A DNA stretch of 64,000 nucleotides from Isoetes taiwanensis (lineage: Eukaryota; Streptophyta; Lycopodiopsida; Isoetales; Isoetaceae): NCBI GenBank assembly GCA_021234155.1, contig JAJEKV010000101.1, positions 1,157,140 to 1,221,139 on the forward strand, read 5' to 3'. Under the pieces are notes generated by a model. That model was not told the origin of the DNA and did not search any database. It worked only from the letters and a program-made list of their open reading frames with translations. Of this stretch, positions 23,200-44,992 are shown in pieces (positions within the stretch are counted from its first letter, which is position 1; each line of letters starts with the position of its first letter). The translations under genes and the position numbers were made by a program.

Positions 23200-24745
23200 A
23201 AAATGCAAAGCTGGGGTCAGGCTACACCGGGTCAAAAGATTGCCCCTAACGCCTTGCTGCTATGGATCAAGAAGCTCACAATGCATTTTGGCCGCTAAGA
23301 TACAGCAAAGGCTACTTAGGTATCTCCGCGTAAGTTCCGAGCCGCTTAAGTGGGAATTTAGCTCATTGGGCAAACACCGTGCCTAATCTTTGGTGCCTAA
23401 TTCTCAAGATGGTGGATCATATGAATCCTCGTGATGCATAGATGTTTTGCCGCAGTTAAGATTTCCCCATGTCGGCTTTTGTGCTTCTATCACTTTCTAG
23501 AACTCCCCTATATGCATTTACAAGATATGGATATAGAATTTATTCTAAGAATTCAAAATGACTATTTAACAAGTTTACGAAGCCGACCGACTCATGAGTA
23601 GCCCCCTGCTCGTGATGTGAGCTTACATAATGCAGTGCATTATTTTTAGAAGATGCAAATCTAGATCGGGATCTAATGATAATGCAGTCATGTATTTTCA
23701 TGAAGGTGGAGGGTGACGCATAAGCGGCTGAGCTCCTTATAGGTTTAGGTTGAACTTTCCTCCAAGATGCACAAACACATGGACTATCCTTTTCTCAATT
23801 CCCATCATAAACTTTTAGTAAATGGTTTGTTTCTGCCCATTTTCTACATGTAGAATTAATTTAAAGTTCTTCTTTGTGCACTTGGTCTGCTCTAAATCGT
23901 AAGTCTAATACTTCATGCAAAAGAGAACAAGAAGGGAACACCGATGGACACATATTGACACATATTGGCCATCCTACTTTTATACACAATAATGGAAGCT
24001 ATAAAATTATGGTGTTTTGACAAACCTTAAAAACATTATGTGCACTCTCAAATTTCTGCATCCTCTAACAAAGCTATCTCATTATAATACTATGTATGTT
24101 CTTCTCAACACCTTAAACTAATGCAATCCCAATACCGCTTTTTTTCTACTACAAGGCCATTTCCATTAATGTTATTCTATTGACCTCTATAATGCAACTT
24201 TATTGCAATATATTACATAAAGAATGCTTATCATAGTAGCATTTCCAACCTATATCGAACTATGTAAACATTCTTTATGCTAATCAAAATGAGCAATACT
24301 ATAAACTCATGCAAGCTTAGTCTTACGCGGTTCCCAAACAAACATTACAACCAATTTTGACCTCTCGCCACTTTTCTCAATGATGCTACTGATGTTTTTC
24401 AGCCGCTTACCCGACCCGCGTACTTGCCTTGCTACCATCGTATTCCCATGTACCAATTGTTTTATATATCAAAGAACGCCAAAGTACCCACATTAGGTTC
24501 GGTATTAATAAGCCTCTTACTCGGCCATAGTAACTACTCTTGGCCGCTAACCAACCGCTATTGTCAAGTAGACTTCTTCATAAGTTGAATGGAAATTCCC
24601 CGAGGTTGCCTTCTAATTACAATGTTCTTTGGTTTGCAAATCTTTCTCAAATTCTCTTCACCAAGTACTGGCCCATTGTGTCATCATCCCCGCAGAAAAT
24701 CTCGTGAACCTCTTTCTTATCATCACATGTACCAGCCTTTAGTGA
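23200..24745. other. No recognised gene
   Basis: Between the gag remnant and the first X module I see only short unrelated frames, none convincing. The 80-codon frame at 24,589-24,831 runs into the X module edge. Confidence 0.6.
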
Positions 24746-24749
24746 AAGC

Positions 24750-26325
24750 GCGAAATGAAGATAACAATTTTAATACCATCCGACGCTGCAGTAGAGGCCG
24801 CTCGTGGATCCTCCTCACGATGCAATTTTAAGTAATTCTTCTTTAGCTTCCCTTTTCTTTCCTTTGGCGCTCTTTTATGATCCCATCTTGTTCTCGGGTG
24901 GTGCCCCTTTCACCAGGTTCTAAAGTTTGGATTTTAGGCAGATTTGCCTAAATATTCAAAGTATGAACCGGATTGATCCACAACCGGATTAAGTGCTATA
25001 GCCGTAAAGCCAGAGCATGTGGGTCGGGTTTAGGAAATCAGGCTCTGGAGATTGGAATGACTCCGTGTATGAGGGAATTGAATGGGACGCAGGGTATAGA
25101 ATCGGGTTGTTGCGCTCAAGAAATGATTGAACTGCAAGCGTATATGCACAGGTCAAACAACATTTAAAACGACCAAATTTGATATCTCCCACATTTTAGG
25201 GGGGTAGGGGGGACAACGCGTGGTGTTCCACTACAAATACATGCTTTCACCTCTCAATCTCAATTTCTAGCTATGCTATCGCGGCAAAAGATCCAAAAAG
25301 CCCGCTTTAAAACAATCTTCGCATGAAATCCACAACATGCATCTCACCTAGTCACATATGCCGACAGACTATGGTCTCAAATTTTGTCGATGTATAGAAC
25401 ATCCTGAATGGATATCTATATGCACCTCTTCTCCTTGATGAAGTCCGTTCCAAGCTTACTCTAAAAAATGTCATCGCGGTTAGCCGGCATTTTTGCAACC
25501 AACAACTCTATGCACCAGATCCTCTCAAGTTCCCATATATCAATCTCATGTATGGGATCGGCATTCTACCCTTCTCCTGTGACAAGCTCGGGTAAATGTA
25601 CTGTCTCCATGCTTGCTGGAGCAATTCCGAAGACGATGTATTATTCCAGAAGACATAAATAAACTCTTTGTTTTGCTCCTCTACGGCTACCATCGCGCCA
25701 TAATGCAAATCTGGGCAGTAATAAGTCCAATGCTGGATTTGCATGTTCAAAATTTCTCGATAAGTCCTCTATCTAACACTGCGCATGATCATCCGCTTGC
25801 TGTGCCGCCATTGTTGCATATGAACTTAACAATGCAGGACCTGATTCCTAAGAAAGTTGGATCCAGGATTTACACTATAAACTTTCCATATGCACCCTCC
25901 CAACATCCCTATTCAATCAAATTCATCGTGGTTGACCCGCCAAGCCGTGTGGTCTTGTGCATCCGGGCAAGTCAGGTGCAAAAGCACGTCCTGACGCGAT
26001 GCTTTGTGCACCTCACTGAAAGTGCCGGAAAACCGGAGCGCGTCAGGCCGCGCCAGCTTATTTGTAACCCAATTTATATTTCGCCCATCTCAAGCATCTT
26101 TACACCGCCTTCACACGCCATCTCACTTCTCCTAAATGCTGTCACCCCTTATTTTAGAGGCCTCTTGAATGTACCATGGGGGTAGGCTCCCCTTTCTTGG
26201 CCTATCTCAAACTCTCTACAAAATTCTCCTCCAAACATTTAGGCCTTCCTTCAACTACCTGGCCCACCACATGTTTTCTAAATTTGCCACTCTTATTTTA
26301 CTGTTCTCTATGGCTCATGGATGTT
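24750..26325 (-). repeat. Module X, copy 1 (3' part of the minus-strand family)
   Basis: Diverged duplicate of 30,118-31,750. Both begin at GAAATGAAGATAACAATTTTAATAC and share GGCCGCTCGTGGATCCTCCTC, TTGATCCACAACCGGATTAAGTGC, TAGCTATGC-ATCGCGGCAAA and AACAACATGCATCTCA. The minus-strand coding remnant at 25,508-25,750 (MNMQIQHW..., MVAVEEQNKEFIYVFWN) corresponds to the better-kept frame in copy 2. A GC-rich stretch near 25,930-26,060 (AAGTGCCGGAAAACCGG, GCGTCAGGCCGCGCC) is also present in copy 2 in altered form. It meets module Y at about 26,325. Confidence 0.8.
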
Positions 26326-29300
26326 CCTGTCCACCCATTCATCCGCTCATCCCGAGCTGTTAGGGCGCACTGCCCTACCACAGAATAGCCTCCTTGGCAT
26401 CATGGGACACGTTCCCAAAGAATTTATCCATAGGTCCTCCTTACCTAATTTCTAGCGCACGTAAGCTTCCCCAATTATAGAGACAGCTGTAGATTTTGTG
26501 CAAAAGCTCTTTGATCGGAAGATGCGGCTTAGTGCAGTACTTCACAGTCAGGTTAGTTAAGCCATTGTGTGAAGCACTAAAGATAGCCTTTTGGAGGTGG
26601 ATCCAGCTTGAGTGGTTCAAAGATTGCATCAAGCAGCAATTTTGTCCGAATAAAGATCCAACTTGTTATGAAAGTTTTAGAATTTTCTTGTATGATCAGA
26701 ATTTAAGTTAGCCAAATGAACCGAAATTCCTCCAAATTGTATCAAAGTATTTGTCCTAAGTCCGTAATACATTTTGTTCAAAAACTGATGTTTTGTTAAA
26801 TTAGTTTAATAGAAGTGTTTCACATCGCTATTATGTTAGATTTAAATGTTGAAATTTGATCAATTTGTCAAGTGTTTGAATTTAAAATTTGAAACCCAAA
26901 AATATGAATTGTTAATGCTTTGGAAATTCGGGACTATTTTGTTTCTTTTGATAAGAAATGAAAACATGGTACAAGAAATGTGGTATTAAGAAATGGGGAA
27001 AAGGTAGAATCACGCATTAAGAGACAGTATAAGTGATGGATATCCCTCATGGATTCAAACTACATTTAATACAGATATGCTACTTGCTTTAACAGGTAGT
27101 AAATCAAGGCATTAAGAGACATGGTATACAGGTGATGTCCTCGATGGATTCTAACTATATTTAATACAGGGGAAGGAGCCATTTGCTTTAACAGTAGGTA
27201 AAACCCTCTTAGTGGTTAAGGACCCTCAAAAGTGAACTACTCAATAAATGTATAGGAATGAGCGAAAGGAAGTCCAAAACTCCACTCAAGCTTCTCAGAC
27301 ATTCAAGGCCGAGAAGATAAAAAGAAATATAACTCCGTAGATGGGTTTCTTTAGATCTCAAGGTGAACCCCTTTGGAAATAACAAGGTATGAATAACAGC
27401 TTTTAAATGAGGGATTATACCAATATAACAAGTTACATTCCTAGCAAATAAGGAAACAGGGGATTATACCAAATAAGGATATTAAGAGATTGTAGTAAAG
27501 TGAAACAACAGAGGATAACAAGGGTTAAATTACAAATTTTTTAAAATGATTGTCAAATACCCAATTCAAAAGTCCCCATTTTATCCCCTTTCTTGTTCTA
27601 CAAAAACAAGGGAGATTTTATAGGTATTTTTTGGGGGTATTTTCCAGGGTAGTGGAGCATCTTTTTCATAGCAAAGAGCTACACCTAAAAATAAAACCCT
27701 CAAAGCACGCACAAGTATCAAATTCTGCATTGTATTTTACAGAGAGGGCATGGTTGTAAGTTAGATTTATTTATTATTTGATCATAAAGTGGATTACTAT
27801 GTATAAATGCCTTGTACATTACATAGGTAGATGGATAGTATTTTGACGTCATGCCACATTGGCAGATCCACGGTATTACAAGAGATAGGACCATCAGCCA
27901 TTAAGATGCCACAATTTATCATGCGAAATGTTGTAGTATGTGATGAACTTGTAGCTCCCTGTTGTGTGTAGCAATGGTGCCCCCCAAATTATTGAGCTTT
28001 ACGAGATTTGCTATCTTAGTAGCTTCCATTGCATCTTTCTTCTATTACTACAAGATGTTTTATCACGAAATCTTGAAGATGGAATAATTCGCTCTAAACC
28101 TTTGGCACTCTTATAGGAATTCAGGACCCAAATTTGATCAAAACAAGGAATACCCACCTTCTTCTTTGAACGACGCCTAATGAATGGTTGCCCAAAGCGA
28201 AAGCAATGACAAAACCAGGCAGTGCTTTTTGGAGCTGCTCCAAGGCAGGAATAACATCTTCGATTTTATGACAAAATGTCTCAAGGTAAACACCATTAAA
28301 GATTGGATGTCGATTTAGAATATCCATTAACCTATCAATGTTAGACTCCAACCTAACTGTTGCTGTTATTTTTATGCCGAGCGTTAGATTGAACTTTTCC
28401 TTCCCGCACTGCAAGAGCCTTCAAACATGTTCACTTCTCCGGGCAAGAAAAGCACCCCTCATTATCGCTTAAATTTAGCATAAACGAACCAAGTCAAGGC
28501 CCAAACCTTGCGTGGAGAATCCTTTGTCCTCAAGATAATCACGATAACCATGCGGAAGCACATGAACAATAGAATAGTATGGAGCAGAAATTCGAGGCAG
28601 CTGTGAGCAACACGCTTATTTAATCCACTTAGGAATCCATTTGGGATTTAACTCGATGTTTCATGCATTGAAATCAGACTTAACGCCGATTTCCAAATCA
28701 AAAGCTCTTCCTTGATAATCCACGCTTGTTCTAAATGTTTTCTGGGGGTTGTGGGACGCCTCTTCCTCCTCTTCCCAACAGCCTAAATTTAACAAATCTT
28801 TGTTACGCCGTGAATGCCCTTTTTTGCACCCAAATAATTTGATTTTAGCTCACCTTGTATCTCGCCTACTTTTCACATTGAGTGTCATCCATTTCATGAC
28901 TATGTTATCCCAAGATTCTCCAAAGGAGGATTTTGAGAGCACACTATTGTAAAACTATGTATTATCTACACTTCAGAGTCAGTATATGTTCTTCCATTCT
29001 CGAGGCTCTTCTTGTAACATTTGAAGAGGTCTCTATTAGCATTTCGAGCCATGTATCGTAATGTGCCCCTGCATTTAAGTGCTGGTGGTATGTAAACCAG
29101 TCCAAAATTTGATTTTGAAATACCAAAGTCACCTAGTTTATAAGGAGCTCCTCATCATCTCTTTGCTTGATTAGAATATTACCGCTTTCATCTCAGAAAT
29201 TAGCATTGTTAATGGAAGATGCTTCCATGCCTTTGGCGCATTTGGGTAAAATGATATCTACCAAGTCCAAAGAGGCCTTTCTTCTCGTAAGAAATCCTTT

Positions 29301-29716
29301 TGCTGTATTCCTGAGAAACTTTTCCAAGTCTCAGGCCTCATGAGCTCTAAAACAAGGCGCTTGTTTCATTTGTTGTGGTACTCAAGGTTGCTAACGCTTC
29401 TACAAGACACATACCCTCCCCACAAATGGGCCTAGTAATTCGAACAATGTGAGACGGTAATTTGTTTCACTATTTTTCTCTAAATATACCAACTTCACGC
29501 CCATAGCCCTCGAGTGACATCTCTTCATGTACCACAGGATTCCATACACTCAAGAGCCTTTGGTCATCCAAAGCCGCTCCCTCCCAACTTATCCCCAATG
29601 GATAGATCCTCATCACAATGCAAAAACCCTCGTTTCTATTTGAAATTAAGCCGTTGTTAACGAAATCAGTGGAAAGGTTGAAATCTCGGGAAGACTCCTG
29701 CTTCCTTCAGCATTAA
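26326..29716 (-). repeat. Module Y, copy 1
   Basis: This 3.4-kb module recurs at 31,750-35,157 and 35,158-38,530, and its first 0.39 kb recurs at 29,716-30,105. Shared landmarks on the plus strand are TTTTAGAATTTTCTTGTAT (near 26,670; 30,050; 32,090; 35,466), GGCATTAAGAGACA, GTTGTAAGTTAGATTTATTT (near 27,753; 33,205; 36,534) and TTATCCCAAGATTCTC. The coding remnants inside it are on the minus strand. Copies differ by many small indels. Confidence 0.88.
28121..28414 (-). pseudogene. Y-module coding remnant, copy 1 (family unknown)
   Basis: Minus-strand frame of 97 codons containing ESNIDRLMDILNRHPIFNG, YLETFCHKIEDVIPALEQL and FVIAFALGNHSLG, then a frame break. The corresponding frames in the other Y copies (33,408-33,650; 36,936-37,118) keep LMDILNRHPIFNG or GNHSL and extend to PSSKIFIDKTYRNEEDAMEA. 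The same peptide in several independently damaged copies argues that this was a real exon. It is helix-rich with alternating Leu/Ile. I do not recognise the family. It lies downstream (minus sense) of the head exons at 38.5-39.8 kb and is probably part of the same ancestral gene. Confidence 0.5.
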
Positions 29717-30105
29717 GACCACCCACCATCCGCTTCATCCTGGAGCTTGTTAGGCGCACCTGCCCTGACTGCTGGCATGAATAGCTTCTTACATTAAGGA
29801 TACGTTCCCAAGAATTCCTATCCAGGTCCTCCCAAGCAAGTTTCCAAATTGCTAGACAGCCAGATTTTGTGGCAAAAAGCCTTTGATCAAGATGCGCTTA
29901 GCAAAGTGGGTGAACAATAGTCGTGGGTTAGTTAAGCTTACTGTGTAGCTCTTGCCAAAGATAGCTTCCCTTTTGGAGGTGGATCCTTGAGCTGCCCAAC
30001 ATTGTATCATGTGCAATTTGTCCAACAAAGATCTAACTTGTTAAGAGTTTTAGAATTTTCTTGTATAATCTGAATTAAAATTCCTTCAATTGCACTAATT
30101 AAAAT
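29716..30105 (-). repeat. Truncated Y module (y)
   Basis: This is the first 0.39 kb of module Y (CACCCACCATCCGCTTCATC..., GAATAGCTTC, TTTTAGAATTTTCTTGTATAAT), cut off where module X copy 2 begins at 30,118. The junction shows that an X-Y segment was joined into, or recombined with, an existing Y copy. Confidence 0.75.
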
Positions 30106-30117
30106 CTTCAAATTCTA

Positions 30118-31750
30118 TGGAAATGAAGATAACAATTTTAATACTATCCACGCTGTAGGCAGAGGCCGCTCGTGGATCCTCCTCTCCGCTGGGATGATGC
30201 AATTTTTATAATTTTTAGCTTCCTTTTTCTTCCTTTCTTTCGGCGTTTTTTATGATCCCATTCTTTGCTTCCGGGAGTTCTCTTCTCTTACCCGTGGCTC
30301 CTAGCTTTGGAGATTTGAAAGTGATGGCCTAAATTAAATGATTCAAAGTATGTCCTGATTGATCCACAACCGGATTAAGTGCCATAGACGCGGTGTCATG
30401 GTGCTACGTAGTCGTGTTTAGGAAATCGGTTCCTATGGAGATTTGGAATGGGATGGGTGGGCGAGGAAATTGGAATGGGATCGTGGTATAGAATCGGGCT
30501 GTTGGCAGCTCAAGAAATGATTGAATCCTGTGCAAAGACATGCAATAGGCTTTCAAACAAAACATTTAAATCGCACTACAAATTTGATATCTCCCACCAC
30601 ATTTTTAGGGATAGGGGACACCTGCAGGCCCCACTACAACATGCTTTCACCCTCCTTAATCTCACTTCTAGCTATGCCATCGCGGCAAAGATCCAAAAGG
30701 CTCGCTTTTAAAACACCCGCATGAACTTACCAACAACATGCATCTCACTTCCATCACATATGCCGATGTAGACCATGGTCTCAGCCTTGTCGACATGGAG
30801 TAGAACATTCCAGAATGGATATCTATATGCACCCTCTTCTCCTGATGAAGTCTGTTCAAGCCACTTAAAAATGTCATCGTTAAGTTGCCGACATTTTTTG
30901 CAACCAACAACTCTATGCACCCGTGATCCTCTCTCGTCTCTATATATCAATCCGTATGGGATCTATATTCTTATCTTCCTAAGAATGTACTGTTCCATGC
31001 TTGTTGAGCACCGTAGACGATATGCCATTATTCCAAAGAAGACATAAATAAAACCTTGCTTTTGCTCCTCCGTTGCCACCATCGCTACCAATGCAACGGT
31101 AGCCAGAGTCCAATGCTTGATTTGCATGTTCAGCTCTCGCATGTTCTTATCTAATTGCTTGGCATGATCATCTGCTTTCAAGGTGCCGTCATTGTTGCAC
31201 ATGAACTTAACAATGTAGACCTGATTCTAAGAAAGTTGGATCCTAGGATTTATGTAATTTATGTGCAAACTTTTCCATATGCAATCCTCCTACCGATCCC
31301 CCCTATTCCACCAAATCTATCGTGCTGGACTCCAAGCAAGCCAGGTGGTCTTAAAGACTGGCAAAAAGTATGTTTGGTGGGTAAAAAGACGCTGGCCCCA
31401 CGTATGCTTTTAGCACCCCTCACTGAAAGTGCTGAAAACCGCCGGAAAGTGCTGGTGCCGGGTGCTGCGTCATGCTTATTTGTAACCCACCAGCATACTT
31501 TGCCCATCTCAAGCACTTTACACCGCCACACGCTTATACCCTACTTTCCTCCACGTTGTCACCTTATTTTAGAGGCTACTCTTTTAACAACATGGGGGTT
31601 AGGGTTCTCTTTCTTGGCCTATCTCAAATTTCACAGCTCCCTCCAAACATTTAGGCCTTCCTTCAACTACTCATTCACCACATGTTTTCTTAAATTTGCC
31701 ACTTCTATTTTAATGTTCTCTATGGCTCGATGGATGTTCCCAACCACCCA
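30118..31750 (-). repeat. Module X, copy 2
   Basis: Partner of 24,750-26,325, offset about 5.37 kb. It carries the best-preserved X coding stretch (30,708-31,202). It meets module Y at about 31,750 with the same junction sequence as copy 1 (CACCCATTCATC next to GTTAG), so X-Y is the native order. Confidence 0.8.
30708..31202 (-). pseudogene. X-module coding stretch with one in-frame stop (family unknown)
   Basis: From 31,202 leftwards to 30,708 one minus-strand frame of 165 codons is interrupted by a single TAG near 30,965. The first part has an amphipathic segment (KQLDKNMRELNMQIKHW), a short hydrophobic stretch (TLATVALVAMVA) and EEQKQGFIYVFFG. After the stop come RDERGSRVHRVVGCKKC, NDDIFKWLEQTSSGEEG and MVYIGICDGSEMHVVGKF. 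Copy 1 (25,508-25,750) repeats the MNMQI-HW and EEQ-FIYVF parts. Conservation in two copies and a single stop suggest a genuine exon that decayed recently or contains one sequencing error. The hydrophobic segment is short for a membrane helix. No family is recognised. Confidence 0.5.
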
Positions 31751-34700
31751 TTCATCTCGCTTTCCATCCCGAGTTTGTTAGCGACTCATCCTCGATCACG
31801 TAATGAATAGCCTCTTGGCATCGTTGACAATGCTCCCAAGAATTCTATCCATAGGTCCTCCCTACCCAATTTCCCATAGCGGCACGAAGTTTCCAATTGC
31901 TAGAGACAGTTGTAGATTTTTGTGCAAAGTTTCTTTGACTTGGCAAGATGCGCTTAGCAAGTAAGATCAATAGTCAAGGTTTAAGCCATTGTGTAGCTTT
32001 ACCAGTATAGCCTTTTGGAGGTGGATCCAGTTGAGTGGTTCAGCATTGTATCATAGCAATTTGTCCGAATAAAGATCCAACTTGTTAAGAGTTTTAGAAT
32101 TTTCTTGTATGATCAGTAATTCTAAGTTACACAATGAACTCAAATTCCTTCAATTGTATCAAAGTATTTGTCCTTGGGTCCAGAATATCACATTTTGTTC
32201 AAACGGATGTACTTGTTGAATTAGTTGTTAGGAAGCAGGTTGATCAAGCAGAATTATGTATATTAGATTTGTTTGTTGAAATTTGATCAATTTGTTACTG
32301 TTGCTTCTTGAATTTGAAATTTGAAACTCAAAATATGGAATTGCTATCATTGCTTTTTGAAATTGACCTTATTCTCAGTTTCTTTGAGGTTATAAATACG
32401 AAAAACACATGGTATTAAGAAATGTGATATTAAGAAATGGGGTATGTAGAATCAAGGCATTAAGAGACAGGGTATGGGCAGTAGAGGATATCCTCGATGG
32501 ATTCAACTATATTTAATACAGATATGCTATTTGCTTTAACAGGGTAGAATCAAGGCATTAAGAGACATGGTATGGGCAGCAGAGGATATCCTCGATGGAT
32601 TCAACTATATTTAATACAGATATGCCATTTGCTTTAACAGGGTAGGCAAAAAACCCTTAGTGTACGTGTTAAGGACCCCTGAAAATGTATCCATTTCAAT
32701 AATGTACAGGAAATGGAGCGAGCGTAGTCCAAAACCTATCCCTTTCTGTACATATTCATACGGAGAAGATAAAAAAGAAATATAACTCAGATGGTTTCTT
32801 TAGGATCTCAAGGTGAACCCTTTGGAAATAACAAGGTATGAATAACAGCTTTTAAATGAGGGATTATACCAATATAAATAAGCATTATCTTTACAAATGA
32901 GGAATGGGGATTACGGCCGTTAAGGATATTAGCAGGGTTTCGGGTAATAGAAAACAACAGAGGATAACAAGGTATGAATTACAATTTTTGGATGGGGATT
33001 GTCAAAATACCCTAATTCTAAAACTCTATTTTATCCCTGTTGTTTCACAAAAACAAGGGAGATTTTATAGGTATTTTTTTGGGATATTTTCCGTGCAGTA
33101 GTGGATACCTTTTCATTGTACCTGCCAGCCCACTACCCCAAAATAAACCTCAAAGGCTTCACGTCAAATTCTTGTGTACTTGCATTTTGCCAGAGGGCAT
33201 GGTTGTAAGTTAGATTTATTTATTATTTGATCATAAAGTGGATTACTATGTATAAATGTCTTTGTACATTACAAAGGTAGATGGATAGTATTTTGACGTC
33301 ATGCCACTTTGGTAGCATCCACGAGGACATAAGAGATAGGACCATCGGGCATTGCAGCATAAAGTGCTACTACCCCATCAAGTGAATGTTGTAGGCTGTG
33401 ATGAACTTTAGAGTCTCAAGTAGGTAGCAATGGTGCCCCCCAAATTATTGAGCTTTACGAGATTTGCTATCTTAGTAGCTTCCATTGCATCTTCTTCATT
33501 ACGGTATGTTTTATCAATGAAAATCTTGGAAGATGGAATAGCTGCTTCCAAACCTTTGGCACTTATATAGGAATTGAAAGGGACCCAAATTTGATCAAAC
33601 AAGGAATGACTCACCTTCTTTTGAACGACGTCTAATGAATGGTTGCCCAAAGCTTAAAGCAATACAAACCAAAGGCTTTTTGGAGTCGCCCAAGGCAGAA
33701 TAATGATTTCGATGTATGACAAACGCCTGGCGTAAACAATTCATTAAAGATTGACAGTCGATTTAGAATATCCATTGCTAACCTATCAATGTTAGGACTC
33801 CAACTCAATCAAGTATTTATTTTATGCCAAGCTTAGATTGAACTCTTTCCTTCTTCCTGCATTCAAAGTAGCCTTCAAACATGTTCTACCTTCTCCGGCA
33901 AGAAAAGCAATTGGCCATCGCTTAAATTTATACAAACGAACCAAAGAAACTCATGGAGAATCCTTTGTCTTCAAGATAATCACGAGCACCGCGCGGCTAT
34001 GAACAATAGAATAGAAGGAGCGTAAATTCGAGGCATGCCAGAGCAACACGCTGGCTTAATCCATCTAGGGAATCCATTTGATTTTAACTCATAAGCCTAT
34101 GCATTGAAATATGCACTGGCAAATTGGGTCAGCTTCCAAATCAAAGCCTTCCTTGATAATCCACAAATTGCTCGCAAAATGTTTTCAAAGGTGGACGCTT
34201 TCCTCCTTTCTTCCCAATGTAAAATTTTAACTAACAAATCTTTAGCATGCCAGAATGCCCTTTTTGCACCAACAATTTGCTTTTTAGCTCACCTTGTATC
34301 TCAGTTTACTTCTTTCCAATATAAGGTTAATGATTTCTATGACTCACGTTTATCCCAAGATTCTCCCAAGAGGATTTGAGAGCACACTATTGCAAAACTA
34401 TGTGACATCTTACACTAGAGTCAGCATATGTTCTCTTTCCATTCTCGAGGCTCTTGTAACATTTGAAGAGGTCTTCTTATTAGTATTTCTCTGAGCTATG
34501 TATCAGACACAGTCAGCTTAAGTGTTGGTATGCAAACCAGTCCAAAATTTGATTTTGGAAATTAAAAGCCAGCTAGCTTTATAAGGAGTCTCTCATCATC
34601 TCTTTGTTGATTAGAATATTACCTGGGCTTCATATCTCAGAATTACCTTGTTAATGGAAGATGCTTCATGCTCGGTGATTTGCAAATGATATCTACCGAA

Positions 34701-35157
34701 GTCCAAAAGAGGCATTTCTTTCCGTGAAAAAATCCTTTTTATTTGATTCAGAAACTTTTCCAGTCTCAGGTCCATGAGCCTAAACACATGCTTGTTTCTA
34801 CCATAGGGTACCTGCTACAACGCTTACAATATACTCCTCCCTACAGTTTGGCCTAGTAATTGAACATCAATGTGAGACAATGAGCCATCATTTTTCTCTC
34901 TCTAAATATACCCAACTTCAACGCCCATAGCTCCTGGGAGTTCTTCTTCATTCTTTCACAGCCATTGTGGATTCCACACCAAGAGCCTTGGCTGACATAC
35001 AACCAAAGTCAGCCTCCCAATCCATATCCCCAATGGATAGATCCCTACCAATGTAAAACCCCGCTTTCTATCTTTTTGAATTAAGTCATGTTGTTAACGG
35101 AAATCGGGAAAGGCTTTGAAATCTCTGGAAGACTTTAAGCCTTTCAAAGATAAGACC
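31750..35157 (-). repeat. Module Y, copy 3
   Basis: Full-length Y following X copy 2. The plus-strand landmarks listed for copy 1 are present in order. Its minus-strand coding remnant is at 33,408-33,650. Offset to copy 4 is about 3.37 kb. Confidence 0.88.
33408..33650 (-). pseudogene. Y-module coding remnant, copy 3
   Basis: 80-codon minus-strand frame that overlaps the end of the copy-1 frame (GNHSLDVVQKK) and extends it: SHSLFDQIWVPFNSYIS, GLEAAIPSSKIFIDKTYRNE and DAMEATKIANLVKLNNLGG. Further upstream the frame is broken, although LMDILN-equivalent DNA is present near 33,765-33,780. Unrecognised family. Confidence 0.5.
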
Positions 35158-37143
35158 ACCCCGGAAGCTTCTGTTAGGTGCACCCTTCGATCAAGTCGCA
35201 TGAATAGCTCTGGCATTGTTGACAATGCTCCCAAGAATTCTATCCATAGGTCCTCCCTACAAGTTTCCAATTGCTAGAGACAGTTGTAGATTTTTGTGTA
35301 AAAGCCTTTGATCAGAAGATGCGGCTTAGCAGTGGTGATCAATAGTCAGAAGTTAGTTAAGCCATTGTGTAGCTTTTGCCAAAGATAGCTTTTTGGTGGA
35401 TCCATTGAGCTTGCCTGAATATTGTATCATAGCAATTTGTCCAAATAAAGATCCAACTTGTTAAGAGTTTTAGAATTTTCTTGTATGATCAGTAATTCAA
35501 ATTCCTTCAATTGTATCCAAGTGTTTGTCCTTGGGTCCAGGTTATCACATTTTGTTCAAACGGATGTACTTGTTGAATTAGTTGTTAGGAAGCAGTTGAC
35601 TGCTGCACTATGTATATTGATTCGCTTTGTTGAAATTTGATCAATTTGTTACTGTTGCTTCTTGAATTTGAAATTTGAAACTCAAAATATGGAATTGTTA
35701 CTGCTGTTTCTTGAAATTCGATCTATTTGTTTCTTGAGGTTATAATGAAAAACATGGTATTAAGAAATGTGATATTAAGAAATGGGGTATGTAGAATCAA
35801 GGCATTAAGAGACATGGTATGGGCAAAGAGAGGATAGATCCTCATGGATCTAAACTATATTTTAATAATGTATATGCTATTTGCTTTGGCCAGGTAGAAT
35901 CAAAAGCATTAAGAGACATGGTAAGGGGCAGCAGAGGATATCCTCGGCGGATCTAAACTATATTTAATATGATATACATTTGCTTTAATTGTGGTAGGCA
36001 AAACCCTGTAAGTGTTAAGGACCCCTGAAAATGTATCCATTTCACAATGTATGAAATGGAGTTTATGAAGTCCAAACTCATCCCTTTCGTATATATTCAT
36101 ACTCTGAGAAGATAAAAAGAAATATAACTCGATGACTTTTTAGGATCTCCCATGAACTGCAGCCACAAATGTTAAGAACAAAATTTTTAAATGAGGGATT
36201 ATACCAATATAACAAGTTATTATCTTACAAATGAGGAATGGGGGATTATGGCCAAATAAGGATATTAAGAGACTTGGGTATGAAATAAATGTGAGGATAA
36301 ATAAAGGTATGAATTACAATTTTGATAGATTGTCAAAATACCCTAATTCTAAACTCTATTTATCCTCGTTGTTTTCACAAAACAAGGGAGATTTTTATAG
36401 GTATTTTTGGGGTATTTTCCGTAGTAGTGGAGCATCTTTTCTATCAGACTTCAGTACCACATCTAAAATAAGTCCTCCGCCTACATTATCAAAATTTCTC
36501 GTGCATTGTATTTCTTACAGAGAGGTATGTTGGTTGTAAGTTAGATTTATTTATTATTTGATCATAAAGTGATTACTATATAAAATGTCTTTTAGTACAT
36601 TACAAAGGTAGATGGATAGTATGACGCCAAGCTACTTTTGCAGTGATCCACGCAGGACATAAGAGATAGGACCATCAAGTCATTAAAAGATGCTGCCAAT
36701 TTATCATGACAATGTTGTAGGCGCATGAACTTAGAAGCTCTGTGTAGCAATGGTGCCCCTGCAAAATTATTGAGCTTTACTTAGATTTTATATCTAGGTA
36801 GCTTTCCATTGCATCTTCTTCATTACCAGATGTTTTATCAATGAAATCTTGGAAGATGGAATAGCCGCTTCCAAACCTTTGGCACTCCTGTATAGGAATT
36901 GAAAGGACCCAAAATTTGATCAAACAAGGAATGGATCACCTTCTTTTGAACGGACGCTCTAATGAATTTGGTTGCCCAAAGCCGTAAAGCAAATGACAAA
37001 ACTGTGCAAAGGTTTTCTTTCTGAAGCCGCCCAAGTGAAATAACATCTTCATTTTATGACAAAACGTCTCAAGGTAAAAACACCCATTAAAGATTGGATG
37101 TCGATTTAGAATATCCATTAACCTAACACGTTAGACACCCAAC

Positions 37144-37398
37144 CTAACTGGCTGCTATTTTTATGCTGCCGTTGATTGAACTCTTTTCTTCGGCACTAAA
37201 GAGCCTTTCAAACATGTTCCGGCCAGGCAAAGAAAAAGCAATTTCGCCATCGCTTAAATTTAGTACAAATTCGAACCGTGTCAAGGCCCAAACCTTGGGC
37301 GTGGAGAATCCTTTGTCTCTGGCAAGATAACGACGATAATCATGCGGAAGCACATGAACAATAATAGTATGAGCAGAAATTGAGGCATGCCAGAGCAA
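37144..37398 (-). pseudogene. Y-module coding remnant, copy 4 (middle part)
   Basis: 84-codon minus-strand frame with IVHVLPHDYRRYLARDKGF, ALTRFEFVLNLSDGEIAFS and GRNMFERLFSAEEKSS, running into the IDRLMDILNRHPIFNG block through a frame break. Equivalent DNA is present in copies 1 and 3 (for example CGCTTAAATTT plus GGATTCTCCA complements near 28,460-28,520 and 33,915-33,965). No family recognised. Confidence 0.45.
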
Positions 37399-38038
37399 AT
37401 ACGCTTAATGAATCCATCTTAGGAATCCATTTGGGATTTTAAACTCGATGTTTCATGCATTGAAATATGCACTTGGTACCGTCGATTTCCAAATCCTAAA
37501 AGCTCTTCCTTGATAATCCACAAATGCTCAAGAAATGTTTCGTGCTGTGGACGCTTTTTCCTCCCTTCCTAAATACCTAACTAACAAATCTTTTAAAGAT
37601 GCCAGAATGCCCTTTTGCACCAACAATTTGCTTTTAGCTCACCTTGTATCTCGCCTAATTTTTCAATATGTCGTGATTTCATGACTGTTATCCCAAGATT
37701 CTCCAAAGGATAGATTTGAGAGCACACTATTGCAAACTAGCAGATATCTACACTAGAGTCAGTATATGTTCTTCCATTCCGAGGCTCTCTGTAACATTTG
37801 AAGAGGTCTTCTTATTAGCATTTCCTGGAGCCATGTATCGAATGCGCCCGCCATGTTTGTATGTAAACCAAATCAAAATTTGATTTTGAAATACTCAAAG
37901 TCAGCCTAGCTATAAGGAGTCTCTCATCAATCTCTTTGCTTGATTAGGAATATTGGCTTCTACTTGTATCTCAGAATTACATTTCACATCGTAGAAGATG
38001 CTTCATGCCTTCAAAGTGCATTTGGTAAAATGTGATAT

Positions 38039-38353
38039 CTACCAAGTCCAAAAGAGGGGGTATCCTTCTAAAAATCCTTTTTGGCCGGATTCGAGAAACC
38101 TTCTCCAAGTCTCAGGTTCATGAGCTCTAAAACAAGGCGAGCCACTTGCTAGGGAAATTAAGGTTGCTAACGCTTCTACAATATACCTCCTACAAATATC
38201 GCAGTAATTGAACAATGTGACGAATGAGCCAGAATGCAATTTTTTCTCTAAATATACCAACTCAACGCCCATAGCGTGGTTATCTTCCGATTCTTCTTGG
38301 CTGTCAATGTGGATTCCGTTAATAATTAAGAGTCTTTTCGACTTCTGGCCCAA
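38039..38353 (-). pseudogene. Y-module coding remnant, copy 4 (N-terminal side)
   Basis: 104-codon minus-strand frame: LLIINGIHIDSQEESEDNHA, MGVELVYLEKKLHSGSFVTL, CDICRRYIVEALATL, FRAHEPETWRRFLESG and FLEGYPLFWTW followed by a stop. It directly continues the head exons at 38,520-39,810 on the minus strand. Homologous DNA is seen in Y copies 1 (29,240-29,640) and 3 (34,680-35,110), both frameshifted. Unrecognised family. Confidence 0.45.
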
Positions 38354-38519
38354 AGTCAGCCTCCCAACTTATCCCCAATGCATAGATCCCCACTCACAAT
38401 GCAAAAACCTTGCTTCTATCTTTGAAATCCAGTTTCTCATGAGAATTCAAACTGTAGAAAGGCTTTGAAATCTCTCGTAGGCACTTAAGCTCTTCAGTAA
38501 AGAGAAGCTTAATCCCGCT

Positions 38520-38831
38520 TCACAGTTTATATTCCAAATAGTCAAGAAACTGCGAAAGTTCGCTACCAAATTCTACCTTATAATTTAATCTGCCAATAAG
38601 CCGGAGTACTAACGTGAGTAGCTCTTCTTAAAACATCTCCGTGCTCTGATTGATCTTGATCGCAACAATCTCCAATTCTAAATCGGCATCTTGGCAGCAG
38701 AGGTTATCTCTGATAATCCATTGCCCTGAGTGATTATCAAGTCCATGGTTGAGATTGGAGAGATTATCAAATCGATGGTGATAATCCTCCACCAGATGTT
38801 TAAGGGAGGCCGCAAATTCCTCCTTCTTCGA
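38520..38831 (-). pseudogene. Head exon, 104 codons with one stop (helical, unknown family)
   Basis: One minus-strand frame runs from 38,831 to a TGA at 38,520-38,522 with a single internal TAA after 61 codons. Parts: KKEEFAASLKHLVEDYHHRF, NLSNLNHGLDNHSGQWIIRD, DADLELEIVAIKINQSTEMF, stop, EELLTLVLRLIGRLNYKVEF and ELSQFLDYLEYKL. Charge and Leu/Ile spacing suggest a helical bundle or coiled coil. It follows the 38,886-39,098 frame and precedes the Y-module frames on the same strand, so it belongs to the same ancestral gene. This region is unique in the window. Confidence 0.5.
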
Positions 38832-38885
38832 TGATTATGGTGATAACCGCCTCGGCCTGCCGGCCTCGAGGGCTATTTGCTATAA

Positions 38886-39098
38886 TCATCTCAAGAGGAG
38901 GGTTATCCTCCTCTTCGTCCGGATGCGTTGCGAGATTAATCGGTTAATCATCTGACAGTATCTTCTGGTATCATCTATAATTTCACGAAATTGACCAAAG
39001 CTGCTGAGAATCATGAAAAGCTCACCTGGAGAGGGCTGATCTGCTGCACAGAGATGGACGAGCTTCATGCCCTCCGTTAATACTTTAAGCAGCTCCAT
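38886..39098 (-). pseudogene. Head exon (helical, unknown family)
   Basis: 70-codon minus-strand frame: MELLKVLTEGMKLVHLCAAD, PSPGELFMILSSFGQFREII and DDTRRYCQMINRLISQ. Periodic Leu/Ile and charged residues suggest amphipathic helices. The pattern loosely resembles N-terminal helical domains of some plant immune receptors, but this is an impression and not a motif match. It lies between the first exon (39,511-39,810) and the exon at 38,520-38,831. Confidence 0.45.
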
Positions 39099-39297
39099 GC
39101 CTGCTGAAGAAGCGCTTACAACCCTTTAACCGGCAGGCCTTTTGATCCGGTTGATCATGGCCGTCTGTTTCAACCTGGTGATAGCGCAGAATGGGCTGAG
39201 TCCTCCGGATTGAGGTGAGAAACAAGCTGAGATGCCTTGGATTCATCTCAGAAACAAGTAGCTCTGCCTTGAAGCCAGCTTCGGGTCGTGATAAGTT

Positions 39298-39368
39298 CAG
39301 GCTAGGGATGATAAACCAGGCTCGACGCTGATGCTAAAACCAGGCTAGGGATGATAAACGAGGCTAGG
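39298..39368 (+). repeat. Short tandem repeat AGGCTAGGGATGATAAA
   Basis: The block (C)AGGCTAGGGATGATAAAC is present near 39,299 and 39,341, and a diverged version (CAGGCTCGACGCTGATGCTAAAAC) sits between them. It lies in the presumed intron or tail after the first exon of the minus-strand gene. Confidence 0.7.
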
Positions 39369-39510
39369 TGCAGGTATGGTGCAGGCTTGCGTTCTTGATC
39401 GGCCAGCTCGTGCTGAAATATAGACCACTTGCTTGTTGCTTGTCAAATGGCTCGCCCCCGCTCGCTCCATTACTTCGCTGTAACAGCCCCGCAGGGGTGG
39501 CTGCAACCCT

Positions 39511-39810
39511 TCATCCTGACCGATGCGTGTTAAGAAACAGAACGGACCAGCCAGGATCGTGCAAGGCCTCTGCCAACTGACCGTGGTAGTCCTCCCAAAG
39601 ACCCATCCATAACTCAACATACTGGGCCTGACCGTGGTAGTCCGCCAAAGGACCCATCCATAGCTCAACATATTGGGCCACTGAATAAAACAGAGACTTG
39701 AGCACAACACACTGATTTTTATGAATCAAGTCGTCCTTGCTTAGAGCACTGTCAATCTTGGATGGCAGGGCCTTTAAATTGCCGAGCCATTCGTGAGATC
39801 CAGCCGCCAT
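39511..39810 (-). pseudogene. First exon of the minus-strand family, with 17-residue in-frame duplication
   Basis: An ATG at 39,810 opens MAAGSHEWLGNLKALPSKID, then SALSKDDLIHKNQCVVLKSL, QYVELWMGPLADYHGQA, QYVELWMGLWEDYHGQL and AEALHDPGWSVLFLNT, after which the frame breaks and appears to continue in another frame (EGLQPPLRGCYSEVMERAG). I chose this ATG because the block just upstream (AGTCAAGCGCTCTCAATTATC in minus sense) looks like leader sequence and is shared by the partial copies. The longer frame from 40,002 would add a stretch with no protein-like features. Three other copies of this exon start exist (about 41,356; 52,432; 53,990), all disrupted. Helix-rich; function unknown. Confidence 0.55.
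39577..39678 (-). repeat. 51-bp tandem duplication inside the first exon
   Basis: CTGACCGTGGTAGTCC begins at 39,577 and again at 39,628, exactly 51 bases apart, so the reading frame is kept. The two units differ at several positions. The same pair is present in the 12.6-kb second copy (about 52,193-52,285), so the duplication is older than the large one. Confidence 0.9.
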
Positions 39811-40095
39811 GGAAGGAGGAGAAGAGATAATTGAGAGCGCTTGACTTTCTATCGATCTCCAGTTGTTCCATGTGAAGTATCCTCTGTTTTTGAAGCCTGA
39901 CATTAACAAAATACCAATAATTACCCGACAACTAAACAATGTTGGACGTCTGCTACGTATCCTTGTGCCTAGGTGTGTGAGGGTCTTGCCTGGGAATTTC
40001 ATAAAATGCTTTCAATTAAGCGACACATATGCATAGATGGACAAAGGCGCGAACTCTTCCAACATTTCTTCATGATGTAAATGGCGCCAACAAAA
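39735..40095 (-). repeat. First-exon/leader segment, copy a
   Basis: This roughly 360-bp segment carries the exon start, the leader and TTTCATAAAATGC plus CATATGCATAGATGGACA. It occurs four times: here, 41,272-41,635 (b), 52,345-52,700 (c) and 53,925-54,250 (d). Copies a/b and c/d are each about 1.5 kb apart, so a tandem duplication within the unit preceded the 12.6-kb duplication. Confidence 0.85.
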
Positions 40096-40610
40096 GGAAG
40101 GAAGGGCTAGCTGAAGGATCTGTGGTCTATCAGTTGTGCTCCGTGATTAGAATTTACTTAACTAAATTTCCCTTTTTATAAAATTTGCTCACAGATATTG
40201 GGATGCTATCTTGCAGCGGGACGGTAATCCCGCAACCGCATTAGCCCGAACAGGCCACCGCCACTTTAATGGGCGCACTATATCTTATATTATAATGTTT
40301 TATCAGAAGTAATAGACCACGCCTCTAAATCTGAATTACCGAGATCATTATCCAATCAAATTGACTCCATTTAGATACATACAACTTACTTTAGGCTTCT
40401 TCTCGTAAGATGGCCAATTGCTCATCCCTATTCTAGCCGTGGAGGTATGGACTGTCCGTTGTTTATGGCGTGGACGTGCCAGGCGTAGTTTCGCTTCCTG
40501 AGGTAAATCACGCTTTTGCTACTTTGCCGAACCTTATAAGTTTAATAGTGCCCACCTTTGGTCAGCCAATTTTGGTAATTGCTTGAGGCTACTTTAGCTC
40601 GAGTTTGCCA

Positions 40611-40933
40611 TGGTATATAAAATCTTCAGCTCATGCACCGGTAGAATGAAATAGGCTTCAAAAACCACCATGGAGGCTTTACGCATAAACACAGAGCTAC
40701 GCCTCGAGTTACAAAATCAGAAAGTGGGGCACCCCCGGTTCACGCGCAGGAGTAATTCTTTTTTCTTTGGTGTGTGTGCCGCAGCTTCCTTGCTAGGTTT
40801 GCCTAAGCACATGCGCACAACAAGCATGCGTGCTATGTTCACGCTTTTGATTTATGGAAGAGCAAGAGCTTATTTTGAAATAGACACTAAGCAAAAGGCA
40901 TTTCAAATACTAATGTACTTCTATTTTCCTTGA
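40611..40933 (+). CDS. Plus-strand start with TATA box, 87 codons, function unknown (copy 1)
   Basis: A TATATAAAA box at 40,613-40,622 lies about 50 bases upstream of an ATG at 40,670 in excellent context (CCACCATGG). The frame starts MEALRINTELRLELQNQK and ends near 40,933. In copy 2 the TATAAA (53,250-53,255) and CCACCATGGAGGCTT are retained, but the frame soon diverges (MEASNLTISHTGPRGLQNQ), with LQNQ still recognisable. Kept promoter geometry in both copies suggests a real start site, divergent from the minus-strand first exons on either side. The body is not recognised and the real exon boundary is unclear. Confidence 0.35.
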
Positions 40934-41271
40934 AGGGGCTGGGATTAATCAAGCAAAGATCTTGCCTCCATTTCAATAAATCAAATTGAGGCCGAAGAAA
41001 GTCGTGAACGCTTTTAAGGCCTTTGGCCTACTATTTTGCATATGGGAAATATGCAATGGACTACCTGTAACTCTCTTGGTATCTGTGTAACGGTAATGTT
41101 GCTCTAAGCCGCAACTTCTTAAAAATGCATATATTGATTAACTTATGATTCCTATAGGTTACCAAGTTAAAGTCATTCTAGCTAATGGGAAATGACTGGA
41201 ACGAATTTTTAAGTTTCCCATGGGAATTTAATGTGCTTCGCTCAGATAGATCCAAGATTTACTGTCTTGCG

Positions 41272-41635
41272 ATGGGCCATGCGAGCACCCGCCAATCTTT
41301 GGATGGCAGGCCTTTAGATTGTTGGGCGCCATTCGCAAGATCCAAACTCGGGCCATGGAAGGAGGGAGAAGAGATAATTGAGAGCGCTTTGACTTTCTAT
41401 CGATTTGCAAATTGTTCCCATGAAGTATCCTCTCGCTTTTGAAGGCCTGCATATTAACAAAAATACCAATAATTACCCTAATAACTAAATAATGCTCAAG
41501 TCCTAACGCATCCTTCGTACCTAGGTAGGGGTCTTGCCCTGAAATTTCATAAAATGCCTTTAGCGACATATGCATCATAGATGGACAAGGGCGCCAACTT
41601 TCCAAATATTTCTTCCCCGGCGTAAATGGCTAATA
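41272..41635 (-). repeat. First-exon/leader segment, copy b
   Basis: Diverged copy of 39,735-40,095. The exon start reads MARVWILRMAPNNLKACHPK, where copy a has MAAGSHEWLGNLKALPSK, so it is frameshifted. Homology stops just after the CCAATCTTTGG block, so the rest of the exon, including the 51-bp repeat, is absent. Confidence 0.8.
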
Positions 41636-41923
41636 ACAAAAGGATCTCGTGCCATTTTACACCCCATCTAGGTTAAACTTAGCAAATTTGACTTATCTCT
41701 AACTTCAATCGCAATTGGGCCCAGCTAATATCTCCGTTAATGCATTTGCCACGGCTGTTATAATTTTAAAACGGAAAACTCTACACCAGTATATCATTTC
41801 GCATAAGACACCGTGAGTTAACATCCGCTTGACGCGTAAATTAACCGGCGGAAAGTGGATTAGTGTAACGTTAAGAAGAAATAAATCACCAACAATGTCC
41901 TTTTATCGCCAGCTTAACCTTAT

Positions 41924-42039
41924 ATGTCGATGCAACCCGACTCCACCGCCGCCGAGGTATCATTAATCGTGGCCAAGATGCACGCGTATCGGGTGGTCAT
42001 GGAAGAGGGGCGAGAGATGGCGCCGTCGCCGCCTAAGAG
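41924..42039 (+). CDS. Candidate exon with conserved donor, function unknown (copy 1)
   Basis: An ATG at 41,924 starts MSMQPDSTAAEVSLIVAKMH, then VVMEEGREMAPSPPK, and ends at AAGAG|GTAATC (donor GT at 42,040-42,041). In copy 2 (54,547-54,677) the frame is also open: MSVCNSDSTAAEVIINV, then VVMEESAAEM and IKR|GTAACT. The start, DSTAAEV, VVMEE and the splice donor are all kept, which is strong internal evidence for an exon. A likely next exon ends at 42,286 with DEFDESDGINYDLKK before GGTTAG (copy 2: 54,870-54,926), and a third open piece lies near 42,383-42,450 (TKHQLEDARFFMHRWIPKK). Family unknown. Confidence 0.5.
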
Positions 42040-42214
42040 GTAATCTCGCTTTTTACATTGAAATTTTGATATCAAGTAAGAATGCATTTAGACAGAGTAG
42101 ATAATTTTTATTCTTTTTCTATCTTCATTGCTTAAAAAAATTAATTAAAGATAGGACAGGAATAGGAACAAGATCATAAATTTCTTGTTGTTTTCTCTTC
42201 CTTTTGAATGCTTG

Positions 42215-42286
42215 AAAGATCCAAGAAAAGTTTTAAGCGGGATGAATTCGATGAATCTGATGGTATAAATTATGACTTGAAGAAAG
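42215..42286 (+). CDS. Candidate acidic second exon (copy 1)
   Basis: Short open piece encoding KSFKRDEFDESDGINYDLKK, ending at a GT donor (42,287-42,288) and preceded by T-rich intron-like DNA. Copy 2 keeps ESDG-INYD with small indels. It is probably the continuation of the exon at 41,924-42,039. Function unknown. Confidence 0.4.
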
Positions 42287-43960
42287 GTTAGTGGCCTATG
42301 GCACTTTATTTTTAAATCCTTTGCCATCTCCCCTCAGATAAACTAATATTCACAACCAGTACTCCGCTTCTAGCCACCAAGCACCAACTTGAGGATGCAC
42401 GATTCTTCATGCACCGATGGATCCCAAAAAAGAAGAGATCATGAATTGGGTCTAAGGAAGAGACAAGGGATGTTAGTGGAGTTCAAAAGTGCATCGGCTA
42501 GTTTAGAGGGAAGCCTGCCCAGTATAAGATGAAATCTAGTATCAAGGTGGAGGAAGATTTCAAAATGGCGTGTAAGTAGATTAGAGATGCCTATGGTTGT
42601 GTTAAAGTATAGAATCTAATTGGGAATATAAGACTATACACCATTTTGCAAGAAAAACCGGGTATAGTCGGAGTATTTTTTCTAATTCCTAAATTTGAGG
42701 TGAAAAGAGTCTATAATCCTTTTTTTTTTTGAGAGAGATAAAAAGGATCTTATTTACTTTAAAGGATGGTACAAAGCCACATGGCAGGGTGTACTCATCC
42801 GCAACTGAGATGAGATATCTACATGGCTCCTTCTTGTATTTATTCCCTTTGTAATTTCCTAGTAGTGTGTAAGCTTAGGTAGGTTCCCATATTTCAATCT
42901 TTTACTTCTTCTTTTCACCTCCTCGGCTACCGAATTTTTTCAAATTCTTTCAAGACTATATGTAGAAGCCCATGTGGGTGATATGTCATCTTGATTTTCA
43001 CCAAGACCAAGAAGCCCTTTCCCCCATATTGACTGTGATTTTGTCCTGCCCTAGCTATATGAAAGCGCCACCTTCTTCATGGTGCACCATTCTAGGAAGG
43101 ATTCCAACAACAGCCTTGGTACCTAACGGTATTCAAAGTTATCCGCACTCCAGCGCCCACTATGCTAGGCCATGGTGAGACAGATGTGCCGGGCTCATAG
43201 GGTATTTGCACACCACCGCTCTTACTTAAGTAACACCTAATTGACTATACTGAACAGGCACTTATTATACACCAAAAACATGACATAGTCCTCACATGGC
43301 GCTTCAAAGGAGAAGGTCCCACTTTGACCTCCCCGCTCGGGGAACCTTTGGGACCATTAGGATCCGGCGTTGTATCGAGAATGATTACACTCTACGCCCA
43401 TCTAGCATCCCCCCTGAGTAGCTTTGTCCCCGTTTGGTCTAGAGTCCGAAGCTTTGGCTCCAGATTTCTTAGGGTTGTGATGGATCCATTTTATTGAGTG
43501 CGTGGCTTCATGATGACATCCCGCAACCCTCTCCCGAGCTCTGCCTCTCTCCCACTCCCCCCGCTTGCGCTTTCTGTACTTGGTGTGTCGATGGATGCCT
43601 CGTGGTCTCACGCTCTTCTATGTCCTTGTGCTTGCATTTCTTGGTCTCAGGTGCCTGTGTCGAAAGTGTGTTATGATTAGCTCCCTGGCTCCTGACATTC
43701 TTTCCCTTGACCTGCTTGGTAGTGCCTTCCTTTGGCCTTGTTTTGGAGTGTGTGCTCTATGGTTGCTTCCATGTATAGTCTTCGGGCTCACCTGTAAGCA
43801 CATGCTAGTTGTTTTGGGTTCATGCATGACTCCACCCACCACATCAAAACATGACCATTTTCTAATGCTAAAATAACCAATACAATGGTACACAATGATT
43901 ATTTAATTTTCAACGGTCTCTATGCAAATAGAAGTTCATAAGGCATCGAATCATTTACAG
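42287..43960. other. No recognised gene; poly-A/T run and Lys/Ser-rich minus frames
   Basis: A 10-base T run near 42,721-42,730 (19-20 T in copy 2, about 55,376-55,394) would be a poly-A tract on the minus strand. Minus-strand frames at 43,402-43,611 and 43,618-43,893, and their copy-2 counterparts near 56,145-56,360, are hydrophilic (KVAGCHHEA is shared: RVAGCHHEA in copy 1), but plus-strand frames in the same place are equally long. I cannot decide whether either is coding. Confidence 0.5.
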
Positions 43961-44964: not shown

Positions 44965-44992
44965 TCCAATCATAGAAGGCTCATTTCTCAAC

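Follow-up and report, generated by a model that had tools for sequence, protein, structure and literature searches.

Layout of the array

We analyzed a stretch of 64,000 nucleotides (nt) from the lycophyte Isoetes taiwanensis (contig JAJEKV010000101.1, positions 1,157,140 to 1,221,139; hereafter the window, whose own numbering is used below). It carries a tandem array on the minus strand, built from three modules termed head, X and Y. Judged by the sequences of relatives, head and Y together are read as a protein kinase gene, composed of an N-terminal domain (a predicted helical bundle), a TKL-like kinase and a degenerate GH18-like tail, while X is read as a second kinase-like gene from a large family other than that of head and Y.

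The window was compared with itself by self-blastn and by exact-seed repeat families. The region 24752-30092 aligned with 30120-35513 (75.6%, E 0), 31792-35146 with 35187-38496 (77.0%), 26471-29646 with 35267-38428 (75.8%), and a short element, y, at 29838-30070 with 31887-32114 (76.2%); all these self-alignments are far above chance level. The array on the minus strand thus consists of two 5.4-kb units, followed by a third copy of Y (Y3, 35187-38496) and then by the head. The layout X-Y, y, X-Y, Y, head and the duplicated module family that had been proposed from the letters alone (the original prediction) were both borne out. The element y, which had been listed as standing on its own, is indeed present at 29838-30092, but it is the terminus of unit 1, the counterpart of 35267-35513 in unit 2, so that the tandem unit is X-y-Y-y, present twice.

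Below, loci and contigs of the assembly carry L and C numbers, and P0002 is the open reading frame (ORF) of locus L028. The features of the array are as follows.

39580-39909, minus strand: head, where the N-terminal domain begins in the predicted head+Y kinase gene (tblastn with P0002 residues 24-133, 59%, E 1.4e-32; head peptide of C656, 83.6% over 39628-39810)
38889-39125, minus strand: further part of the N-terminal domain, corresponding to P0002 residues 147-225 (tblastn 81%, E 4.3e-32; 90.7% to the C656 copy over 38901-39125)
36596-38430, minus strand: Y3, predicted kinase domain and degenerate GH18-like tail, with many stops and frame shifts (tblastn; blastn to C656 79.6%)
33265-35147, minus strand: Y2, predicted kinase domain and tail, without an attached head (tblastn; blastn to C656 79.8%)
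27815-29697, minus strand: Y1, predicted kinase domain and tail, without an attached head (tblastn; blastn to C656 82.0%)
30705-31869, minus strand: X2, the putative second kinase-like gene, which comes from a different large family and corresponds to L058 residues 90-430 (tblastn with the L058 ORF, E 1.3e-18 and 3.0e-15)
24752-26470, minus strand: X1, the unit 1 copy of X (DNA only: blastn to X2, and to L055-L057 at 67-73%; not reported by tblastn with L058)
24752-30092, no strand: tandem unit 1, X-y-Y-y (75.6% to unit 2 by blastn; of 354 gaps, 275 measure 1-2 nt and the longest 11 nt)
30120-35513, no strand: tandem unit 2, X-y-Y-y (blastn to unit 1)
29838-30092, no strand: y, end of unit 1 (blastn 76.2% to 31887-32114; inside the alignment of units 1 and 2)

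Kinase genes and their relatives

A six-frame Pfam search of 24001-40500, with stops read as X, reported nothing over the cut-off (only 6TM_PilS, E 0.063), and Rfam found nothing at the gathering threshold in 24000-41000. We ascribe the missing direct Pfam match in the window to frame breaks. Relatives were found by searching the genome, i.e., the same assembly as the window (1,658,258,908 bases, 1110 contigs), with part of Y and then fetching the loci. Stop-free relatives of head+Y exist in this genome, among them loci at C1057:9160268 and C1018:19315402. Contig C1026 (L028) contains an open frame of 728 amino acids (aa), and C656 (L024) has two open frames, of 310 and 467 aa, that overlap.

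The L028 protein matched the Pfam protein kinase profile (Pkinase, PF00069) with E 5.5e-43 at residues 303-584. Nine further relatives with a whole kinase (L037, L038, L040, L046, L047 and L048-L051) gave E-values from 1.4e-46 to 5.1e-42, that of L037 being 2.1e-44. In intact relatives, the motifs GxGSFG, VAVK, YRDMKP (HRD as YRD), DFG and APE were read by eye in alignment A1. By tblastn, the N-terminus of the L028 protein aligned with the head (39909-39580, 39125-38889), and its kinase and tail aligned with each of the three Y copies. These matches are colinear and lie on the minus strand; therefore, head and Y belong to one gene. Both the domain content of the relatives and this colinearity with the window are direct observations.

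The original prediction had treated all modules as parts of one gene, which is correct for head and Y, while X comes from a different gene family. Coding on the minus strand was confirmed with proteins of other loci (tblastn) for the head, Y1, Y2, Y3 and X2; X1 was recognized by DNA match only. The array had also been put forward as a candidate for an undescribed protein family, with a strong match to the profile of a known family named beforehand as evidence to the contrary. Such a match, to protein kinases, was found, and the family is not an undescribed one: the match is strong in the relatives of head+Y and weaker in a relative of X. What survives of the novelty lies at the level of architecture, since it is unusual for a kinase to be combined with both a GH18-like tail and an N-terminal domain that has no Pfam family.

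It had further been suggested to look for kinase, NB-ARC and LRR domains. The kinase was found in the relatives; neither NB-ARC nor LRR was reported in the six frames of the window or in the relatives scanned with Pfam. It should be mentioned that a nucleotide-binding leucine-rich repeat (NLR) immune receptor on the plus strand was also considered, for which a short EDVID-like plus-strand peptide near 32544 was the only sign. The stretch encoding this peptide is a 98-nt tandem repeat, and the six-frame Pfam search reported no Rx_N, NB-ARC or LRR on either strand. This candidate was dropped after that search, and we give it practically no weight.

A protein search of the genome with P0002 gave 68 matches (61 scored of 1116 candidates), many of them in stop-free frames of 400-1030 aa. 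The N-terminal domain, the kinase and the tail are common to L037, L047, L049, L050 and L051, and also to L048, which is cut by the end of the stretch. In a search with L051 (63 rows, 50 scored of 1713 candidates), nine rows besides L051 itself span from residue 92 or earlier to residue 896 or later, i.e., over the N-terminal domain, the kinase and GH18, and eight of these nine have no internal stop. Hence the fusion recurs in the genome and cannot be an artefact confined to a single locus. Other relatives stop near the kinase or have other parts.

The tail of L051 is a GH18 domain by Pfam (PF00704, E 2.6e-34) and resembles chitinases in the Protein Data Bank (PDB; 5gzu, E 2.8e-42). PF00704 matched in L051 only, and Pfam did not report it for the tails of L037, L047-L050, L028 and L024. 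Alignment of the tails of L037, L024 and L044 with that of L051 by hhalign gave a probability of 97.8 (E 8.3e-13, 127 columns). The profile of alignment A2 found chitinases first among PDB sequences (3.9e-7); A2 includes L051, so this result adds no independent support for tails of the window type. The GH18 catalytic motif is DxxDxDxE. By eye, it was not seen in alignments A1 and A2: L051 reads FNGLVIDWLYV, and the members of the window type are more degenerate. Because of this degeneration in the members read, the GH18-like tail is probably devoid of chitinase activity.

We compared the relatives by the ratio of nonsynonymous to synonymous substitutions (dN/dS), which covers clean relatives only, the frames of the window copies being too broken for it. 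The ratio was 0.28-0.53 in four of six pairs (L037/L038 0.42, L047/L051 0.28); for the two C656 parts against C1026 it was 0.63 and 0.81, and for tails alone 0.56-0.77. The wider family is constrained, while the branch closest to the window is relaxed or error-bearing. No literature on a combination of kinase and GH18 in lycophytes or Selaginella was found among open-access papers.

An AlphaFold2 model of L037, built with 14 sequences, had a predicted local distance difference test score (pLDDT) of 69 and a predicted template modelling (TM) score of 0.63, with helices at 4-184, the kinase at about 217-500 and an alpha/beta tail at low confidence. Its best PDB match by Foldseek, ahead of other kinases, was Arabidopsis MLKL3 (6ka4; E 3.5e-16 over 562 columns; TM 0.69 by target and 0.49 by query, root-mean-square deviation 9.2; the listing gives no range). 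VIA-align returned matches of the kinase domain only (residues about 198-505) and is silent on the other parts. The N-terminal domain had no convincing Pfam family (best Baculo_LEF5, E 0.0064, in 2 of 11 members and below its cut-off), and its profile found nothing significant among PDB sequences (best E 0.31).

Two further long open frames were also noted. On contig C1093 (L040 82-3171 and L041 563-1519, both plus strand), a frame of 1030 aa joins an HSP70-like N-terminus to the same N-terminal domain and kinase; the HSP70-like part scored E 2.9e-4 and 19.6 bits with PF00012, just under the cut-off of 20.6. A second frame of 1375 aa near the C1026 relatives (L030, 5166-9290, plus strand) resembles, by eye, a retroelement polyprotein.

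For X, the relative L058 matched Pkinase with E 5.1e-10 at residues 228-426 (Pfam), its DFG motif reading DWG by eye, and is colinear with X2 at 31869-30705 on the minus strand (tblastn). With the L057 protein as query, each of the 150 places scored (of 398 candidates) gave a match, X2 (C910:1188698-1188988) being one of them. Genome-wide, the X-type family has at least 150 matches, most of them below 45% identity, with frames of up to about 620 aa, a number that suggests a very expanded or mobile gene family. The size of this family and the interspersed repeats inside X and beside Y would fit an origin of X, Y and head as a transposon-encoded protein family. We consider this very improbable, as the relatives are kinases and no transposon domain was reported by the six-frame Pfam search.

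Damage in the window copies

Besides the array, the window contains a 12-kb duplication and interspersed repeats.

39585-51329, no strand: first copy of the 12-kb duplication, with the head at its edge; second copy at 52194-63984 (blastn 74.8%, 12,557 columns, 834 gaps, none above 11 nt)
52198-52348, minus strand: second, fragmentary head copy in the 12-kb duplication (tblastn, E 1.4e-4 to 2.5e-4)
30115-30652, no strand: interspersed 540-nt repeat in X2, with the unit 1 copy at 24752-25262 (483 candidates, 40 places scored, all with a match: the window and, at 77-79%, 39 further places)
32597-32820, no strand: fragment of an interspersed repeat, located between X and Y (matches of 72-78% over most of its length and one 65-nt match of 94%, at other loci)

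Against C656, gaps in the three Y copies of the window number 87 (1958 columns), 98 (1958 columns) and 103 (1910 columns) and are mostly of 1-2 nt, versus 28 gaps in 2394 columns between C656 and C1026. Small gaps dominate both duplications as well, with 653 of 834 gaps of 1-2 nt in the 12-kb one and 275 of 354 in the 5.4-kb one, and no gap in either exceeds 11 nt. DNA that had truly diverged by 25% would hold long indels and insertions. The window alignments consist of exact blocks of up to 72 nt alternating with scrambled patches, far off the run-length expectation of a geometric distribution. For the 540-nt repeat, identity is 72% between the two window copies, 77-80% between these and four outside copies (four of seven counted, L005-L007 left out), and 89-94% among the outside copies; these distances represent private, star-like damage of the window copies.

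The damage is not evenly distributed over the sequence. In Y1-3 it touches 82% of CAG/CTG, 74% of CCG and 64% of ACG trimers, versus a mean of 38.6%. The CAG excess recurs in both duplications (5.4-kb: 81 of 98, mean 0.46; 12-kb: 171 of 225, mean 0.48) and is absent in the cleaner C1026 copy. CHG and CG are plant methylation contexts. Two deamination products account for 19 of 51 single-base outcomes at CAG (the printed list covers 149 of 159 outcomes), and deamination as the sole cause at these sites was rejected. A clean-column test for shared differences of Y1-3 against C656 had only 45 usable columns, of which two were shared and none private.

According to the genome paper, the I. taiwanensis assembly comprises 1658.30 Mb in 204 scaffolds and 909 contigs. 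The nanopore data came from v9.4.1 flow cells and were processed with Guppy 3.1, miniasm, racon and pilon; gaps were filled in two rounds of LR_Gapcloser, presumably with nanopore reads as filler (PMC8566536). In a Klebsiella pneumoniae benchmark, about 70% of the consensus errors of the then-current default nanopore callers fell in methylated CCAGG/CCTGG (PMC6591954). By title, no literature on nanopore assembly errors at plant CHG sites was found.

From the damage pattern, itself a direct observation, we infer an origin mainly in sequencing error. The window stretch would have been poorly corrected or gap-filled, with errors enriched at methylated sites, and real decay may underlie the errors in its copies; decay and error are thus probably mixed, with error dominant in the window. 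The reading we favor, and regard as probable when taken as a whole, is that of a minus-strand tandem of head+Y and X kinase genes whose stops and frame shifts are mainly uncorrected nanopore errors at plant methylation contexts, and whose head+Y product may act in the manner of MLKL.

Several observations weigh against this combined reading. The excess at CHG and CG is ambiguous, because methylation-driven mutation would produce the same excess. When outside copies of the 540-nt repeat are compared with one another, 44 of 72 CAG sites differ, versus 0.18 overall; the clean C1026 copy shows an excess at ACG (0.50 vs 0.313) and at CCG (0.54, 13 sites); and in the indel-rich C972 copy the damage has no link to CG/CHG sites. 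The CAG depletion of the window (observed/expected 0.71) falls inside the 0.33-0.97 range of other loci. As in real evolution, isolated substitutions are mostly transitions (72 of 95 in five partly overlapping pairs, 13 of 20 in three Y pairs). Breaks occur outside the window too, C656 being split over two frames and C1026 having one in-frame stop before the tail end. As to function, the L037 model is of moderate confidence with a weak tail. Searched on their own, the L024 and L037 tails gave no GH18 match with Pfam or with phmmer against PDB, and the tail model (pLDDT 54) has no Foldseek match at E <= 0.001; its first rows, GMP reductase and GH18 chitinases, lie at E 5e-3 to 1e-2 and are not significant.

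Some of these observations fit true pseudogenes, i.e., a kinase array that was silenced and methylated and whose copies then decayed independently: the CHG/CG excess would be that of methylated DNA, the isolated substitutions are transition-rich, and other copies of the gene also have stops or frame breaks. However, no gap above 11 nt occurs in 12.6 kb and 5.7 kb of alignment at about 75%, exact blocks alternate with scrambled patches, deamination products are a minority of the single-base CAG outcomes, and the C972 copy equals C656 over a 426-nt run before becoming patchy. We therefore consider decay alone unlikely. The original prediction took peptides recurring in independently damaged copies as a sign of real coding sequence; this holds, but the damage bears several marks of sequencing error and does not by itself establish pseudogene status.

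Another possibility, compatible with the favored reading of mainly uncorrected errors and somewhat short of an even chance, is that the 5.4-kb and 12-kb duplications are partly false, noisy overlapping read ends having remained unmerged in assembly or gap filling. Neighboring duplications share the same identity of about 75% within one 40-kb stretch, the Y copies lie at similar distances from one another (74.7-77.6%) with no deeper split visible, and long-read gap filling was a step of the published pipeline (PMC8566536). On the other hand, unit 2 continues into Y3 and the head and unit 1 does not, so that more than one jump is needed, and plants commonly have genuine tandem arrays of genes of this kind. 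The 12-kb duplication, which shows the same small-indel pattern as the kinase array, is possibly a false one.

Damage was also noted on other contigs. In L027 (C972:125001-135000), the kinase gene copy is identical to C656 over that 426-nt run and patchy elsewhere. In L026 (C522:70001-80000), CAG/CTG is strongly depleted (observed/expected 0.41) and the damage of the kinase copy is centered on CG/CHG sites; this is likely another noisy contig. Recognizing noisy stretches by their CAG depletion alone was given up, as loci overlap too much.

The array itself is an ordinary cluster of kinase genes, probably located where the assembly is noisy. More generally, what looks like a tandem "pseudogene family" in a plant assembly from nanopore reads can be the imprint of basecalling errors, partly at methylated sites. 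Because such errors can mimic pseudogene families, counts of decayed genes from these stretches are unsafe.

Possible function and comparison with known systems

The architecture of the relatives is the part worth following. With plant MLKL as the best fold match, the recurrent fusion of N-terminal domain, kinase and GH18 in stop-free relatives could represent an early-diverging plant immune or cell-death receptor design. As to function, we infer an intracellular signalling or cell-death protein. Its helical domain would be the effector, acting on membranes or oligomerizing, as proposed for MLKL; the kinase would be the switch controlling this domain; and the GH18-like tail, probably non-catalytic, may bind a glycan or a partner. 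On a bolder and rather doubtful view, the lineage expanded MLKL-like proteins that couple a membrane-active helical domain and a kinase to a non-catalytic sensor with a chitinase fold; these would be single-protein detectors of chitin or glycans that trigger cell death, and would form a class of immune receptors apart from NLRs and receptor-like kinases.

Among known systems, plant MLKL gave the top Foldseek match of the L037 model, and the 562 columns of the match with MLKL3 exceed the kinase domain alone. The head+Y family differs in the GH18-like tail that it adds after the kinase, in the Lys, HRD-like YRD and DFG motifs that its relatives keep, and in its N-terminal domain, which has no significant PDB sequence or Pfam match. 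According to a review, plant MLKLs act in immunity and are conserved across seed plants (PMC9950082), whereas the head+Y family comes from a lycophyte. The literature matches listed for MLKL and Selaginella were off topic by title. Membership in plant MLKL is not established; that the family works like MLKL is, from the model, a fair lead.

RAF-like TKL kinases have flanking domains unlike those of the head+Y family. GH18 chitinases resemble it through the Pfam and PDB matches of the L051 tail, but the tail of the family has a degenerate catalytic motif and is fused behind a kinase. Tobacco CHRK1 is a membrane receptor-like kinase whose chitinase-like part is N-terminal and lies outside. It shares with the head+Y family a chitinase-like domain joined to a kinase; in the head+Y family, however, the GH18-like part is C-terminal and another domain occupies the N-terminus.

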